In this document: positions 1 to 54,712 of the stretch, piece by piece
Position numbering within the stretch: the first letter of the stretch is position 1
How the letters are laid out: each line of letters starts with the position of its first letter
From: Alphaproteobacteria bacterium
GTDB taxonomy: Bacteria; Pseudomonadota; Alphaproteobacteria; Micavibrionales; Micavibrionaceae
Assembly (NCBI GenBank): GCA_018399685.1
Contig: JAGYOK010000001.1
Coordinates: 62,001-126,000, forward strand
DNA: 64,000 nt
Direction: 5' to 3'
The notes under the pieces: model-generated
Databases searched by the model: none
Told to the model about the DNA's origin: nothing
The model's input: only the letters and a program-made list of their open reading frames with translations
Position numbers and translations under genes: made by a program

Positions 1-1095
1 GAAGAATTTATAACCATAGACACAGAGTTTTTGCGGGAGAAGACCTATTATCCCAAGCTTTGCCTTGTCCAACTCTCTGGCTCTGATAAAGACGCGCGGG
101 CTGTAGACCCTCTGGCCGAAGGCATTGATATGTCGCCTTTATTCGATTTGTTGCAAAATAAAAGTGTACTTAAAGTTTTTCATGCTTGTCGTCAGGATCT
201 GGAGATCTTTTATAATCTGATGGGCTGCGTTGTCACGCCGATTTTTGATACACAAGTCGCAGCTATGGTCTGTGGATATGGTGATGCAATAAGCTATGAA
301 AAGTTGGTGAAAAGCATTGCGGGCGCCAATATTGACAAAAGCTCTCAATTTACAAACTGGTCACTTCGCCCTTTAAGCGATAAACAGCTCGAATACGCCT
401 TAGGAGATGTTACACATTTGTGTGATGTATATCAGGATTTGCGCGGGCAGCTCAAGAAAACCAAGCGTTGCCGATGGGTTTTCATGGAAGAGGAGATTCT
501 GAACAATCCGGCTACCTATGAAAACGATCCCTACGAGGCATGGAAACGCATCAAGATTCGCTCTCCCAAGCCTCGCTCTTTGGCTATATTGCGAGAGCTG
601 GCAGCGCTGCGGGAGCGGCAGGCACAAAAGTGTAATATCCCTAAAAACTGGGTTATTCGTGATGACACGCTTGCAGATATGGCGGGGCAGGCTCCTCGTG
701 ATATAAAAGACCTGAAAAAAATACGTAATATTTCAAAAGATATTATAAACGGTAAGCTGGGAAATCAGATGCTAAAAGCTATTGAATCAGCTTTGGCCAG
801 CCCCAGGGAAGTGTGGCCGGTTCCGGTAAAGAAAAAACAACTATCTCCCCACGAGATAGTTATCATTGATATCTTGAAAATGCTGTTAAAAATCGAAAGT
901 ACAGAGCATGGGGTTGCTCCAAAAATAATCGCCTCTGTGGATGATCTTGAGGCGATTGCACTGGATGATAATGCAGACGTTCCTGCGCTTAAAGGCTGGC
1001 GCAGGGAAGTGTTCGGAGAAGACGCTCTGGCCGTTAAACATGGCAAAATTGGAATTGGTATTAAAGATAAAAAAATTGTAAAAATTAAGCTGTAA
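1..1095 (+). CDS. rnd: Ribonuclease D, 5'-truncated by window edge
   Basis: Frame is open from base 1 (EEFITIDTEFLREKTYYPKLCLVQLS), with DEDD exonuclease motifs and a C-terminal HRDC-like region; the listed start at 31 is an internal TTG. Confidence 0.9.
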   Translation, partial: EEFITIDTEFLREKTYYPKLCLVQLSGSDKDARAVDPLAEGIDMSPLFDLLQNKSVLKVFHACRQDLEIFYNLMGCVVTPIFDTQVAAMVCGYGDAISYEKLVKSIAGANIDKSSQFTNWSLRPLSDKQLEYALGDVTHLCDVYQDLRGQLKKTKRCRWVFMEEEILNNPATYENDPYEAWKRIKIRSPKPRSLAILRELAALRERQAQKCNIPKNWVIRDDTLADMAGQAPRDIKDLKKIRNISKDIINGKLGNQMLKAIESALASPREVWPVPVKKKQLSPHEIVIIDILKMLLKIESTEHGVAPKIIASVDDLEAIALDDNADVPALKGWRREVFGEDALAVKHGKIGIGIKDKKIVKIKL

Positions 1096-49705: not shown

Positions 49706-50653
49706 TTATTGAGCAGAAGCAACGATTGTATTGGAGGCATCTTCCGGGGTGGTGTGCAGCCACCATGCTTGCCTGTTTATCGAGTATATCGGCTTGTAAT
49801 GCCCAACAGCACTGGCGCTATGCATTATCTTGCTTTGGTTATCCAGAACATATGGCCCTTTTTCGGTGTAGACGATTAATATCGCGTGGGGCATTTTCTT
49901 TTTCAAATCCTGAACAATAGCAACGCGCATGCGGCTTTCCGGAACTCCCATTGCGCGCAAAGCTACATATTTGGCGATGGCAAAATCCTCACAGTCTCCA
50001 CCATATTTCATGAATTCAACAGGTGTTGACCAGTAATCGGATTGACCCCAGTTCTTCTGATCGATGATGTATTCTTTCTTGTTCATCATCGCGTCAACAT
50101 CCTTTGCCATTTCATAAATAGAATCCGATAGATATTCAGACAATTCTATTTTCATGGCCTTGATTATGCGTCGCGCCTTGATATCTTTCATCTCTTCTTC
50201 AAAACGGTCAAACATCCCAAGCCATTTTGTAAAAGCTTTTAAATTTCCAGAGCGCTTTTCATTAGCTCCAAACAAGGAAGGGTAGATTTCAATATCTGCA
50301 AATTGTGGATCTGAGTCGTTGATCGAGGCCAGTACTATTTGATCGTCAAGACCCGCAGCGTTCGAGGACTTTAAAAATATGCATAACGAAGAAAGACAAA
50401 GAATTCCTGTTGCCAGAGTGCGCAGGATCCTTTGTTTAAAAAGTAAACCATAAAGCTGTTTTCTGTTAATAAACCCCATCTCCAGAAACACTTCACCAAG
50501 AGGGGCGGCTGTATTTTTCTGGCGTTTGAGTGCGTGCCTTAGCTCATGTGGAGAAATTGATCCTTGTACAACAAGAATTTCACCTATCTTATTATGAGAT
50601 AGTAAATAACTTATTTTTCTTAAAACCCCTGTAGGGAGCTTGTTATCAGCCAT
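49706..50653 (-). CDS. MshEN-like domain fused via a TM segment to a transglutaminase-like cysteine peptidase (BTLCP/LapG type)
   Basis: N-term KIGEILVVQGSISPHELRHALKRQ + KNTAA + PLGEVFLEMGFINRKQLYGLLFKQ; hydrophobic TLATGILCLSSLCIFL; C-term YGGDCEDFAIAKY, PHAILIVYT, YVLDNQ triad context. Confidence 0.8.
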   Translation of the reverse strand: MADNKLPTGVLRKISYLLSHNKIGEILVVQGSISPHELRHALKRQKNTAAPLGEVFLEMGFINRKQLYGLLFKQRILRTLATGILCLSSLCIFLKSSNAAGLDDQIVLASINDSDPQFADIEIYPSLFGANEKRSGNLKAFTKWLGMFDRFEEEMKDIKARRIIKAMKIELSEYLSDSIYEMAKDVDAMMNKKEYIIDQKNWGQSDYWSTPVEFMKYGGDCEDFAIAKYVALRAMGVPESRMRVAIVQDLKKKMPHAILIVYTEKGPYVLDNQSKIMHSASAVGHYKPIYSINRQAWWLHTTPEDASNTIVASAQ

Positions 50654-50861: not shown

Positions 50862-52400
50862 ATGAACAACAAAACCCCTCAGGCCGCTGAAATAATTAAT
50901 AAATTCAAGGGTCTCCCCATTCTTGTGGTCGGCGATATTATGCTTGATCGCTTTATATATGGGAAAGTTAATCGGATATCCCCCGAAAGCCCGGTTCCTG
51001 TTCTTTCTGTGGAAAGAGAGAGCATGATGCTTGGGGGGGCGGGTAACACGCTTTCAAACCTGATTCATTTGGGGTGTGAGGGAAGAATAGTCTCTATCAT
51101 TGGTGATGATGAGAATGGCAAAATATTGAAAAGGGAGATCCAAAGAAACGGAATTGACCCATCTTGCCTCATTAAGGTTTCCGATCGCCCGACAATAGTT
51201 AAAACAAGATTCCTGGCCGGTCACCAGCAGCTCCTCCGCTCGGATTATGAACGCATTTCACCGGTTTCCGAACAATATCTACAGCCCTTGCTTGAGAAAA
51301 CAAATCAGGCGATAGAAGGCGTTGGCGCTGTAATTATATCGGATTACGGTAAAGGCCTGTTAACACCGGCTTTTATAAAAGAGCTTATTACAATGGCCAA
51401 TAAGAAGGAAATTCCGATACTTGTCGACCCCAAAGGCATGGATTTCGGTATTTATAAAGGCGCGGACGTTATAACTCCAAATAAAAAAGAACTACAAGAA
51501 GCCACAGGCGGTATGGGTGTTGATACCGATAAACAAATAGAAGAAGCGGCCTTGCATATTATTAAATCCTGCGGCCTTAAAAGCGTCGTTGCAACGCGTT
51601 CGAAGGATGGTATTAGTGTAGTGCAAAATGAAGCGAGGGGGGCTAATGTCGCTCATATCAGAAGCTCTTATGATATTGAGGTTTTTGATGTTTCCGGCGC
51701 AGGAGACACGGTTATTGCGACTATCGCGGCGGCGCTTGGTTCCGGCGCAGATATTGTTGCTGCTGCGTCTTTGGCCAACATTGCCGGAGGCATTGTTGTT
51801 TCAAAAGTTGGTACATCACCAATTTGCGCAGAAGATCTGCAAGACTATATCGCAAGGCACGATCCTTATGACAGCATAGAAAAAACACCGTGCGAGCAGG
51901 TTGATTCGGTATATCAGGCGCCAGTTATGGGTTGGCAAAAAGCAGGTGAAGAGGTTCGTCGATGGAAAGCTCGCGGGCTAAAAGTCGGCTTCACAAATGG
52001 CTGTTTTGATATTCTCCATTACGGACACGTTACGTATCTTAATGATGCGCGTCGTAAATGCGATCGTCTGGTTTTAGGGCTTAATAGTGACTCATCTATC
52101 AGATTGTTGAAAGGAGAAGGGCGGCCAGTGCATAATGAGGAATCCCGCGCGCGAGTTATCTCGGCGCTGGGAGCTGTGAACATGGTTGTTATCTTTGGCG
52201 CGCAGGAAGAAGGGCAGGATAACACCCCGTGTGACCTCCTATCCCAGCTCCAGCCCGATATTTTCTTCAAAGGTGGAGATTACACCATTGACCAGCTTCC
52301 AGAAGCGCCAATAATCATGCGCAATGGCGGGCAGGTCGAGATTATGCCAATCTATGAGGGGCACAGCACGACCGGATCAATCGAGAAGATAAAAGATTAG
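50862..52400 (+). CDS. hldE: Bifunctional heptose 7-phosphate kinase/heptose 1-phosphate adenylyltransferase
   Basis: PfkB kinase (VVGDIMLDRFIYG, DVSGAGDTVIATIA) fused to nucleotidyltransferase (FTNGCFDILHYGHVTYL). Confidence 0.95.
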   Translation: MNNKTPQAAEIINKFKGLPILVVGDIMLDRFIYGKVNRISPESPVPVLSVERESMMLGGAGNTLSNLIHLGCEGRIVSIIGDDENGKILKREIQRNGIDPSCLIKVSDRPTIVKTRFLAGHQQLLRSDYERISPVSEQYLQPLLEKTNQAIEGVGAVIISDYGKGLLTPAFIKELITMANKKEIPILVDPKGMDFGIYKGADVITPNKKELQEATGGMGVDTDKQIEEAALHIIKSCGLKSVVATRSKDGISVVQNEARGANVAHIRSSYDIEVFDVSGAGDTVIATIAAALGSGADIVAAASLANIAGGIVVSKVGTSPICAEDLQDYIARHDPYDSIEKTPCEQVDSVYQAPVMGWQKAGEEVRRWKARGLKVGFTNGCFDILHYGHVTYLNDARRKCDRLVLGLNSDSSIRLLKGEGRPVHNEESRARVISALGAVNMVVIFGAQEEGQDNTPCDLLSQLQPDIFFKGGDYTIDQLPEAPIIMRNGGQVEIMPIYEGHSTTGSIEKIKD

Positions 52401-52618
52401 CGTACCAGCTCTAATAAAAGGTAGAAACACCCACCGATTGAAGTGTTGGGAAATAACTCTGTACCTGAGCTAAAAGAGTTGCTAGAATCGTCGCCAGCGA
52501 GAATTAACAAAAACATGCATCGGTAACCTGATTTCGTGTGGGTATGAGATTATTATTAATGTCTGGCTTGGTTCTCGTTATGACATGTTTTTAAAACATT
52601 TATAAAAGGTCTGGTCTT

Positions 52619-53374
52619 ATGCGTTTTACATTATTTGCTTTTTGTTGTTGTGCTTTATTGTCCTTAGGGGCATGTACGAATTATCCTAATCCCATGGCAC
52701 GGGGCTATTCATCATATGCCCAAGCTTACAAGTCTGCCCCCGGCCCGACTGTGGATGATATAGGCTATGATTATTCCTATCATAGCAACAAATCTGTATT
52801 GAAAGATATTCGTTATGTTGCTAGCGATCTTGTAGAAAAGCTCGACAAAAAACTCGCCATGAACGTGGAAGAGGTCTATTTGAAAGTCCAAAGTGACAAT
52901 GCCTTTTATAACAGCTTTGATTACATTATTCGCGATGAATTAACCAAACGCGGCTATTTGCTTGCTATATCACCCGTAAATACATTGACTTTGGATCTTG
53001 TCGTGGAAAGTGATTTGCCGGAATGCACAGGCGTTGAACAGGGTGAGGGAGTATATAAAAAGATGTTCCTTGCTCTGGCGATTAACGTTAACGAAGGCAT
53101 TCCTCAGGACTTGGTGGGAGATTATTATGAAGTCCCCGCATATGATTTTGAGGCTGGTGAAAACGGAGGTATAGAAATTAACCTTTGTCCGGAAGAAGAG
53201 CAGGTTGTGGACGTTTATCAGGCCGTAAAAGATCATGAGGAAATTATTGTTCCGGAAGAAATGATCGTTATAGACCTTACGGCAAAAGAACCGGCACAAA
53301 AGGACGTGTCTGATATTATTCCAGAGTTGCTGGAAACCCAAAATACTGAAGCACCGGAAGAAGCACCGGAGTAA
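52619..53374 (+). CDS. Predicted outer-membrane lipoprotein, possible FlgO-like fold
   Basis: Lipobox SLGAC; ASDLVEKLDKKLAMNVEEVYLKVQSDNAFYNSFDYIIRDELTKRGY resembles the FlgO N-terminal pattern; acidic C-terminus. Confidence 0.6.
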   Translation: MRFTLFAFCCCALLSLGACTNYPNPMARGYSSYAQAYKSAPGPTVDDIGYDYSYHSNKSVLKDIRYVASDLVEKLDKKLAMNVEEVYLKVQSDNAFYNSFDYIIRDELTKRGYLLAISPVNTLTLDLVVESDLPECTGVEQGEGVYKKMFLALAINVNEGIPQDLVGDYYEVPAYDFEAGENGGIEINLCPEEEQVVDVYQAVKDHEEIIVPEEMIVIDLTAKEPAQKDVSDIIPELLETQNTEAPEEAPE

Positions 53375-53398
53375 ACATAACCACGGGAAGGTGGAAAA

Positions 53399-53983
53399 AT
53401 GCGCTATGGTGGTAAAACGTTTCTTGTTTTGATCTCATGTTTACCGCTGCTCAGTGCTTGTCTGCTAAGTGGTCCGTATCCATATAAGCTAACAGCAGGA
53501 GTGCTCTATGCTGCATCACAGGGCGTGTTTGCAGACCCCAAGGTTAACCTCAGGGAAAAAAATTATGCTGCGGCAGATTTTCTCCAGTCTCAATTCGGAA
53601 AAACGGTATCAACATATCACGTCATAAAAGCGCTCCCGCTTGAGGAGTTGGATCATCCGGGTATTACCTCGCCATTAGGGCGTAATATTTCGGAAGGGGT
53701 AGGTCTGCGCCTTGCAGAGCTTGGATACAATGTTTTGCTGCAAGATGTAGCCCCTCACGATAATCAGGGGCTTTACCCGAAACCTTCGCAAGACATTTCA
53801 GAGCACTATATCCTCAAGGGTTATTACAACGTTAAAGCCAACGATATCGATATAATTTTGCATATGGTAGATGCCAGAAGCAACAAAGTTGTTGCGCGCT
53901 TTGATTATACAATGATCCTCTCGCGAGAAATAAAGAAGCTCGCGCAAACCTCGCCGCAGATATTCCGGGTAAAAGGGCAATAG
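53399..53983 (+). CDS. FlgO-domain-like lipoprotein
   Basis: Lipobox LLSAC; AAADFLQSQF...LGRNISEGVGLRLAELGYNV...EHYILKGYYNVKANDIDIILHMVDARSNKVVARFDYTM. Confidence 0.65.
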   Translation: MRYGGKTFLVLISCLPLLSACLLSGPYPYKLTAGVLYAASQGVFADPKVNLREKNYAAADFLQSQFGKTVSTYHVIKALPLEELDHPGITSPLGRNISEGVGLRLAELGYNVLLQDVAPHDNQGLYPKPSQDISEHYILKGYYNVKANDIDIILHMVDARSNKVVARFDYTMILSREIKKLAQTSPQIFRVKGQ

Positions 53984-54001
53984 GGTAAAAACTAGACCAG
54001 A

Positions 54002-54712
54002 TTATCGAGCCATCAATGTGTAGAAATAATGATAGCTGTTATCGGCTGTGCACCTTACGCAACCCTGCTTGGCGGGCTTAATGGAAAAGCTTGTTTCTTC
54101 TACAACATTTGGAGTGATGGAGAATTGCTCCCCATCACCAAACCGTTTGGAATTAGCTGATTTCAGGCAAGAAGACGTATCTTCAGGTTGCCCCTCAAAT
54201 CCGAGCGACTTATTTATAATACTGCAAAATTCTTCCGTTACGTTCGGGAGAACAGCTATTAATTCAGCGTCATCCGAGCCAACGTCCGGCAATGCAGTTT
54301 GCCCGTAAAACTCCCACATATCGCCATTATTCACGTTTTCTGGCGGAGCGCTATAGCGAACACCCCCGCCTTCGCGCGCGAATATCTGGTTGGTTTTGTC
54401 TGTATCTGCTGACAAGTCTCCGTAATCTTCTGCCGCTAAAGGGTGGGAGAACCTTATATCGTTCTCGCTTATGCCGTTTTGCATGATGTAGTAAATGCCG
54501 CGCTCTAGCTCATTGGCATGTTGCCTGACCTGAGCTGCGTATAAAATCAAAGTCTCTTTATCAATTTGTGCGTTATTGTTTGAATTTCCTTGTATGGCTG
54601 CGACCAAAGCGGCGATAAGAGCAATAGCTATTAATATAATTATCAGCATATTGCCCTGCTGATCTTTAATTTTGTTTTGTGGGTTATTAGACCTTTGATA
54701 AGGGTTGGGCAT
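54002..54712 (-). CDS. Type IV pilin-like protein lacking Glu5, paralog of the 19582 and 20316 products
   Basis: QQG|NMLIIILIAIALIAALVAAIQ; NGISENDIRFSHP matches SGVSVDEIRFNRP; shared GGG.x.Y.xAPE.V segment. Confidence 0.75.
   Translation of the reverse strand: MPNPYQRSNNPQNKIKDQQGNMLIIILIAIALIAALVAAIQGNSNNNAQIDKETLILYAAQVRQHANELERGIYYIMQNGISENDIRFSHPLAAEDYGDLSADTDKTNQIFAREGGGVRYSAPPENVNNGDMWEFYGQTALPDVGSDDAELIAVLPNVTEEFCSIINKSLGFEGQPEDTSSCLKSANSKRFGDGEQFSITPNVVEETSFSIKPAKQGCVRCTADNSYHYFYTLMAR

Follow-up and report, generated by a model that had tools for sequence, protein, structure and literature searches.

Can a c-di-GMP receptor and the protease under its control be carried on one polypeptide? 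In known Lap-type systems the c-di-GMP receptor is a separate inner-membrane protein (LapD, or DvhD). The question is raised by a gene in a 64,000-nucleotide stretch of DNA, here called the window, from a member of the Micavibrionaceae (assembly GCA_018399685.1, contig JAGYOK010000001.1, positions 62,001 to 126,000). The gene encodes an MshEN c-di-GMP domain, a signal-peptide-like segment and a LapG-type BTLCP protease, in that order. The features discussed below are listed in Table 1.

The ORF starts with ATG and is uninterrupted by a stop over its 315 codons. The segments quoted in an earlier, sequence-only reading of this DNA, namely two 24-residue motifs and the KNTAA spacer between them, are all exact in the ORF. 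That reading proposed a single-ORF fusion, and the fusion is real: the family models for both domains exceed their cut-offs, and both domains have structure matches. The source genome is a metagenome assembly (2.1 Mb, 108 contigs, 92% complete), and it might be thought that two genes have been joined by an assembly or frame artefact. Beyond the fragmented assembly itself there was no sign of this, and identical domain order is found in 90 non-redundant full-length homologues, some of them on single-contig genomes. A frame error separating the two domains is thereby refuted, and the chance of an artefact is negligible. An internal start at Met59, which would give an unfused protease, was rejected because inspection of the alignment shows that Met59 is not conserved in the family. 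Scanning the intergenic region for promoters and terminators gave nothing above chance.

Table 1. Features of the fusion gene, its product and related loci. Positions are those of the window except where a locus is named.
Feature	Residues	Position	Strand	Basis or remarks
Fusion gene: MshEN c-di-GMP domain, signal-peptide-like segment, LapG-type BTLCP protease	315 aa	49706..50653	-	
MshEN domain	22-74	50432..50590	-	NF053729, Foldseek to 5htl, conserved contacts
MshEN motif 1	22-45	50519-50590	-	24 residues, KIGEILVVQGSISPHELRHALKRQ
Spacer between MshEN motifs	46-50		-	5 residues, KNTAA
MshEN motif 2	51-74	50432-50503	-	24 residues, PLGEVFLEMGFINRKQLYGLLFKQ
Hydrophobic (h) region	79-94	50372..50419	-	preceded by basic R/K78
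Signal peptidase I-like site S97-N98-A99	97-99	50357..50365	-	family consensus A-R-A; A99 90/90, position 97 small 90/90
Probably disordered linker	about 100-128	50270..50356	-	pLDDT < 50 at residues 94-115
LapG-type BTLCP (peptidase C93) domain	about 129-301	49751..50269	-	PF06035, LapG structures
Catalytic Cys	C221	49991-49993	-	in GGDCEDFAIAKY; 90/90 homologues
Catalytic His	H256	49886-49888	-	in PHAI; 90/90 homologues
Catalytic Asp	D271	49841-49843	-	in LDN; 90/90 homologues
hldE-like neighbour (PfkB kinase + cytidylyltransferase)		50862..52400	+	divergent from fusion gene; 85 loci of group, usually adjacent
Unfused tandem BTLCP paralogues		L092:9033-9710, L104:9071-9745, L105:9068-9745, L111:9772-10428, L119:9109-9837		

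The AlphaFold2 model of the fusion protein (pLDDT 83) consists of four MshEN helices, followed by a low-confidence linker and then the protease fold. Past the protease domain there is a conserved C-terminal tail, T-x-(V/I/L)-x-A-S-A (window 49706-49760), which is modelled as disordered.

The C-terminal half is a LapG-type protease, as the sequence-only reading had suggested. The match to PF06035 scores 73.5 bits, against a cut-off of 27, over residues 169-298. A phmmer search of the PDB matched Legionella LapG (4fgo) at 1.7e-21 and a putative protease (4u65) at 6e-19, and Foldseek showed that this half of the AlphaFold model has the LapG fold (4fgq, E 5e-10). The catalytic triad is fully conserved, as are three acidic residues, D220, E222 and D223 (90/90 homologues), which are predicted to form a Ca site and are assigned by homology to LapG. 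The LapG equivalog model NF045674 gives 98.4 bits, below its cut-off of 320, and the protein is LapG-like and not a LapG orthologue as judged by NF045674.

The MshEN fold proposed for the N-terminus is likewise borne out. NF053729 (c-di-GMP_motif, MshE-related) matches end to end at residues 22-74 with 53 bits (cut-off 38), phmmer against the PDB matches V. cholerae MshE (5htl) at 2.1e-6 and also Thermus PilF, and the N-terminus of the AlphaFold model superposes on c-di-GMP-bound MshE (5htl) over 53 columns at 0.8-1.0 Å, with a Foldseek probability of 1.00.

The sequence-only reading noted that the conserved arginine is replaced by K in motif 1 and P in motif 2, and was concerned that binding might be weakened or lost. 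The alignment argues against this. All 90 homologues have K or R at position 22, the counterpart of Arg9 in MshE, and 11 of the 12 guanine-contact positions (R/K, L, G, L, L, Q in each motif) are conserved. The exception is the first residue of motif 2, position 51, equivalent to Arg38 of MshE, which is variable (P in 48 homologues as here, R in 10, Q in 10, and others). G24, L38, G53 and Q74 are invariant (90/90), while L71 is found in 89, L42 in 86 and Q45 in 72 of the 90. Mean entropy is 0.60 bits at the 12 contact positions vs 2.37 bits at the other 41 (Mann-Whitney p 5e-6, uncorrected for relatedness); some of the contact residues have a role in the MshEN fold as well. Motif 2 of the fusion protein fits the relaxed pattern of Wang et al., and motif 1 misses it at one position, Ser32. 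The pattern permits [RKPN] at the arginine position, and changes of Arg9, Asp12 or Gln32 in MshE shift the affinity at most about fivefold, the hydrophobic contacts being of greater importance (PMC5013675). On the basis of the conserved contact residues and these results, the MshEN domain is likely to bind c-di-GMP.

It could be argued that the domain no longer senses c-di-GMP and has become a localisation or interaction tag, for example for a secretion or pilus platform, with constitutive release of the protease and control by expression or by Ca. PF05157-type domains also bind proteins. Further points in this direction are the variability of position 51 and the fact that the relaxed pattern is followed by only 55/90 homologues in motif 1 and 25/90 in motif 2. 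The near-invariance of the other contacts, including the four invariant residues and K/R22 (all 90/90), would be needless for a mere tag, and we regard this explanation as rather unlikely.

The source genome has seven GGDEF matches, several with an intact GG[D/E]EF by eye, so c-di-GMP is probably made in this organism. GGDEF proteins are present in 12/12 genomes searched. The only other MshEN domain above cut-off in the source genome belongs to a GspE/PilB-type ATPase (L151:8865-10910, on contig G000:C15) in a pilus or type II secretion cluster.

A match to the fusion protein is found in 57/58 related genomes, drawn from the same genus, family and order (Micavibrionales), and most of these matches span about residue 8 to 314. 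The named relatives found by a family-alignment search of contigs are Micavibrio and alphaproteobacterial MAGs. Beyond the Micavibrionales, in about 780 genomes (388 from the class and 398 from the phylum), the matches listed cover the protease part alone: those from outside the family begin near residue 82 or later, nearly all after residue 110, and the only full-length matches among those listed come from the window's own family. An MshEN profile specific to the family gave no match in the fetched unfused BTLCP loci. We therefore consider, from these comparisons of sequence, that the fusion is old, and specific to the order Micavibrionales as far as sampled.

One genome of the order has nine protease matches, several of them consecutive on one contig (G044:C9), which represents a BTLCP expansion. 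In the window, positions 50862-54712 contain genes for the hldE-like protein, a lipoprotein, an FlgO-like lipoprotein (PF17680) and a short membrane-anchored protein, and this arrangement is kept in about half of the loci. Across the group the fusion gene and hldE are usually divergent, and the FlgO-like lipoprotein genes lie on the far side of hldE.

The hydrophobic segment between the two domains had been described as a transmembrane (TM) helix. In the AlphaFold2 model the last MshEN helix continues unbroken through it (helix 64-92). The segment is hydrophobic, mostly over 15-18 residues among the homologues, and is preceded by R or K at position 78 in 90/90. At 18-24 residues from position 78 comes Ala99, which is the sole invariant residue between 79 and 124 (90/90), and at residue 97 every homologue has one of A, S, V, T, P or G; no other pair of columns two apart has a small residue followed by Ala in more than 41% of the 90 homologues. 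The features expected by signal peptidase I, namely a basic n-region, an h-region and small residues at -3 and -1, are thus all present in the homologues, with the atypical feature of a folded n-region of 75 residues. The c-region after the hydrophobic stretch contains a basic residue in 74/90, which is unusual for a signal peptide. Unfused BTLCPs of other Alphaproteobacteria have in this position an ordinary signal peptide with a similar A-x-A end.

Because the invariant Ala99 and the small residue 97 follow the (-3,-1) rule of signal peptidase I, the segment looks more like an ancestral signal peptide than a plain TM helix. The parsimonious history is that MshEN was added ahead of an existing signal peptide, which was retained. 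The topology put forward earlier, with a cytoplasmic MshEN and a periplasmic protease (N-in/C-out), is judged from the sequence to be supported. The idea of sensor and protease in a single chain holds for the gene product as made; it may not describe the mature form, given that the signal peptidase I rule is obeyed in 90/90, and the predicted cut may part the sensor from the protease when the protease is released. In five Micavibrionales the fusion gene is followed immediately downstream by a second BTLCP gene, which is unfused and begins with an ordinary signal peptide that likewise has an A-x-A end; it is a natural paralogue that lacks the sensor (Table 1).

If instead the segment is never cut, MshEN and protease would remain one chain, and c-di-GMP would act across the membrane through the position, dimerisation or reach of the protease. 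The continuity of the MshEN helix with the hydrophobic helix in the model is consistent with such a tethered protease, and in the sequence itself the strongest point for an uncut anchor is the basic residue after the hydrophobic stretch. There is also a precedent for a membrane-anchored BTLCP in DvhG of D. vulgaris (PMC13090378). An invariant Ala99 and an always-small residue 97 within a variable stretch are hard to explain without signal peptidase, and homologues have a normal signal peptide at the same place. We consider an uncut anchor unlikely, while giving it some weight.

The genome search suggested in the sequence-only reading for LapD found its domain to be absent: LapD_MoxY_N (PF16448) was found in 0/121 Micavibrionales, vs 89/299 Pseudomonadota, which served as a positive control. 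In many of these positive genomes, comparison of coordinates places a LapG match beside the LapD domain. A GGDEF-EAL protein of the source genome (L183:2228-4405, on contig G000:C37) was considered as LapD and not adopted, since its EAL catalytic residues look intact by eye. Its resemblance to LapD lies in a pair of TM segments and a periplasmic part; it also has a degenerate GEDEY, and could be a LapD-like or phosphodiesterase partner. Most of the genomes searched contain GGDEF frames of similar size (728-763 aa). Micavibrionales may conceivably have a receptor of a kind other than LapD, as DvhD is.

The same search was to cover adhesins with a TAAG-type site, and a T1SS adhesin with [T/P/A]AAG was indeed found in the group. 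An ABC protein of the LssB/LapB type scores above the TIGR03375 cut-off in 12/12 genomes tested, the best-scoring gene in each genome is grouped with tolC and hlyD in a LapEBC-like set, and at most of these loci tolC has a very large ORF for an adhesin as its neighbour. Nine adhesin N-termini were located by gene order and not by motif; [I/V]E[P/T]AAG occurs in all nine, and in most of them two times. The cleavage point of LapG enzymes lies between the alanines of [T/A/P]AAG, a site that comes after a β retention domain and a targeting helix (PMC13090378). The model of the adhesin N-terminus (pLDDT 65) has two β-rich parts, then a helix (205-213), and then EPAAG and disorder. In this model, which is of modest confidence, the helix-then-AAG layout resembles that of known LapG substrates (PMC13090378); Foldseek gave no useful fold match for the modelled N-terminus.

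A profile of the adhesin segment matched 46/58 relatives by score, including a weak and false match in the window's genome (G000:C1:2526), which was rejected as a coiled-coil protein with PASG. The [TPA]AAG site is present in 45/46 adhesin loci. With a motif-free profile, [TPA]AAG was found within 28 residues upstream in 40/44 loci, vs 14/897 background windows of the same frames, with some circularity remaining beyond the nine N-termini located by gene order, as the loci were originally fetched with a profile that contained the motif. The adhesin HMM found no match in 12/58 genomes, nearly all of which keep the protease. In the window's genome the adhesin is broken by a contig end, which removes its N-terminus together with the region of the cleavage site and leaves 548 C-terminal residues with VWA and RTX; the tolC-ABC-hlyD genes are present. 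The fusion protease gene and the adhesin locus are not adjacent.

FecR/BapA_N-type T1SS proteins (loci L145-L150), to which the LapA retention model gives weak matches, were rejected as principal substrate candidates because their FecR part is not followed by a conserved AAG site. Four of these loci (L146-L149, for example L146:9016-18345) contain a second T1SS locus, consisting of a FecR/BapA_N-type FG-GAP protein, a CHASE2-adenylate/guanylate cyclase, HlyD and an LssB-type ABC protein; in L149 its genes are in opposite orientation.

In M. aeruginosavorus, GMV0107 is a protein of 2892 aa with VWF and RTX, whose gene adjoins those for TolC, HlyB and HlyD and has reported values of 16.9 in attachment phase vs 0.3 in attack phase (PMC3189940). 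Its architecture and gene order lead us to infer orthology with the adhesin described here. The fusion protease probably has a giant T1SS adhesin as its substrate, which it would cut off the cell.

The protease could in principle be a c-di-GMP-linked BTLCP with some other target in the envelope. In Caulobacter, the alphaproteobacterial BTLCP HvyA restricts capsulation (PMC4241560), and the fusion gene adjoins hldE (LPS heptose synthesis) and FlgO-like lipoprotein genes and not the adhesin. The presence of a canonical [TPA]AAG at the right structural place of the adhesin in nearly every locus speaks against another target, which we think improbable.

Our overall reading is that Micavibrionales have a Lap adhesin-release system without LapD, in which the c-di-GMP receptor is fused to the protease precursor; we hold this to be probable. 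Its computed components are the fusion, both folds, the conservation of ligand and catalytic residues, the (-3,-1) site, the absence of the LapD domain and the occurrence within the order of an adhesin with its site and transporter; what we infer is that c-di-GMP is bound, that the precursor is cleaved at 99 and the adhesin is cleaved as well, and how and in which direction control is exerted. The precursor would be a Ca-dependent LapG-type cysteine protease with a cytoplasmic N-terminal MshEN receptor directly ahead of a signal peptide. It would be inserted N-in/C-out via Sec, such that the protease domain enters the periplasm, and signal peptidase would most likely cut after Ala99 to give the free protease. 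This would in turn cut the adhesin at [I/V]E[P/T]AAG, past its periplasmic retention domain, and so let it leave the cell. With c-di-GMP bound to MshEN the precursor would stay uncleaved or tethered, and adhesion would be maintained at high c-di-GMP; loss of c-di-GMP would lead to cleavage after Ala99 and adhesin release.

LapD restrains LapG by retaining it at the inner membrane. We favour gated release because of this, and because three of the ligand contacts, L67, L71 and Q74, share a helix with the hydrophobic segment. The more specific proposal is that of a ligand-gated signal peptide, in which c-di-GMP bound to MshEN decides whether signal peptidase releases the attached protease, replacing LapD within one polypeptide. 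This is put forward only tentatively, and we know of no case in which c-di-GMP gates a signal peptidase. A sensor that is cut off acts only before or during cleavage.

The entire order appears to have lost LapD and to have placed a different c-di-GMP domain on the protease precursor, ahead of a cleavable-looking signal peptide. If the scheme is true, it represents inside-out control of an adhesin in one polypeptide and a novel type of output for MshEN, and it may also be the first signal peptide gated by a second messenger. Predators of the Micavibrio type attach to prey to live, and for them it would provide a concrete and testable switch between attachment and detachment, a relevance suggested by the strong upregulation of the related adhesin gene GMV0107 in attachment phase (PMC3189940). 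A literature search, which left most subscription journals and preprints outside its range, found no description of MshEN and LapG in one protein, or of Lap components in Micavibrio.

Compared with the LapG/LapD/LapA/LapEBC systems of Pseudomonas fluorescens, V. cholerae and Legionella, the system described here has the same BTLCP with a C-H-D triad and predicted Ca-binding acidic residues, a T1SS adhesin with VWA and RTX, a periplasmic N-terminal retention part and [T/A/P]AAG, and an LssB/LapB-type ABC transporter. It differs in that Micavibrionales lack the LapD domain and have a receptor of unrelated fold (MshEN) fused to the protease precursor, and in that the protease gene lies outside the adhesin operon and scores well below the LapG equivalog cut-off (98 bits vs 320). 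With DvhG/DvhD of Desulfovibrio vulgaris it shares a divergent BTLCP, adhesin release without a LapD receptor and membrane anchoring of the protease; however, DvhD is a separate dCache-PAS-HD-GYP protein, and DvhG has a TM helix and linker and no c-di-GMP domain (PMC13090378). HvyA and other alphaproteobacterial BTLCPs belong to the same family and class and are exported by a signal peptide, but they lack MshEN; HvyA is controlled by cell-cycle expression and acts on capsulation (PMC4241560). Finally, MshE, NfrB and PilF-type proteins contain the same 53-residue, two-motif c-di-GMP domain with the same fold; in them it is fused to cytoplasmic ATPases or glycosyltransferases (PMC5013675), whereas here it is fused to a protease that is predicted to be exported.
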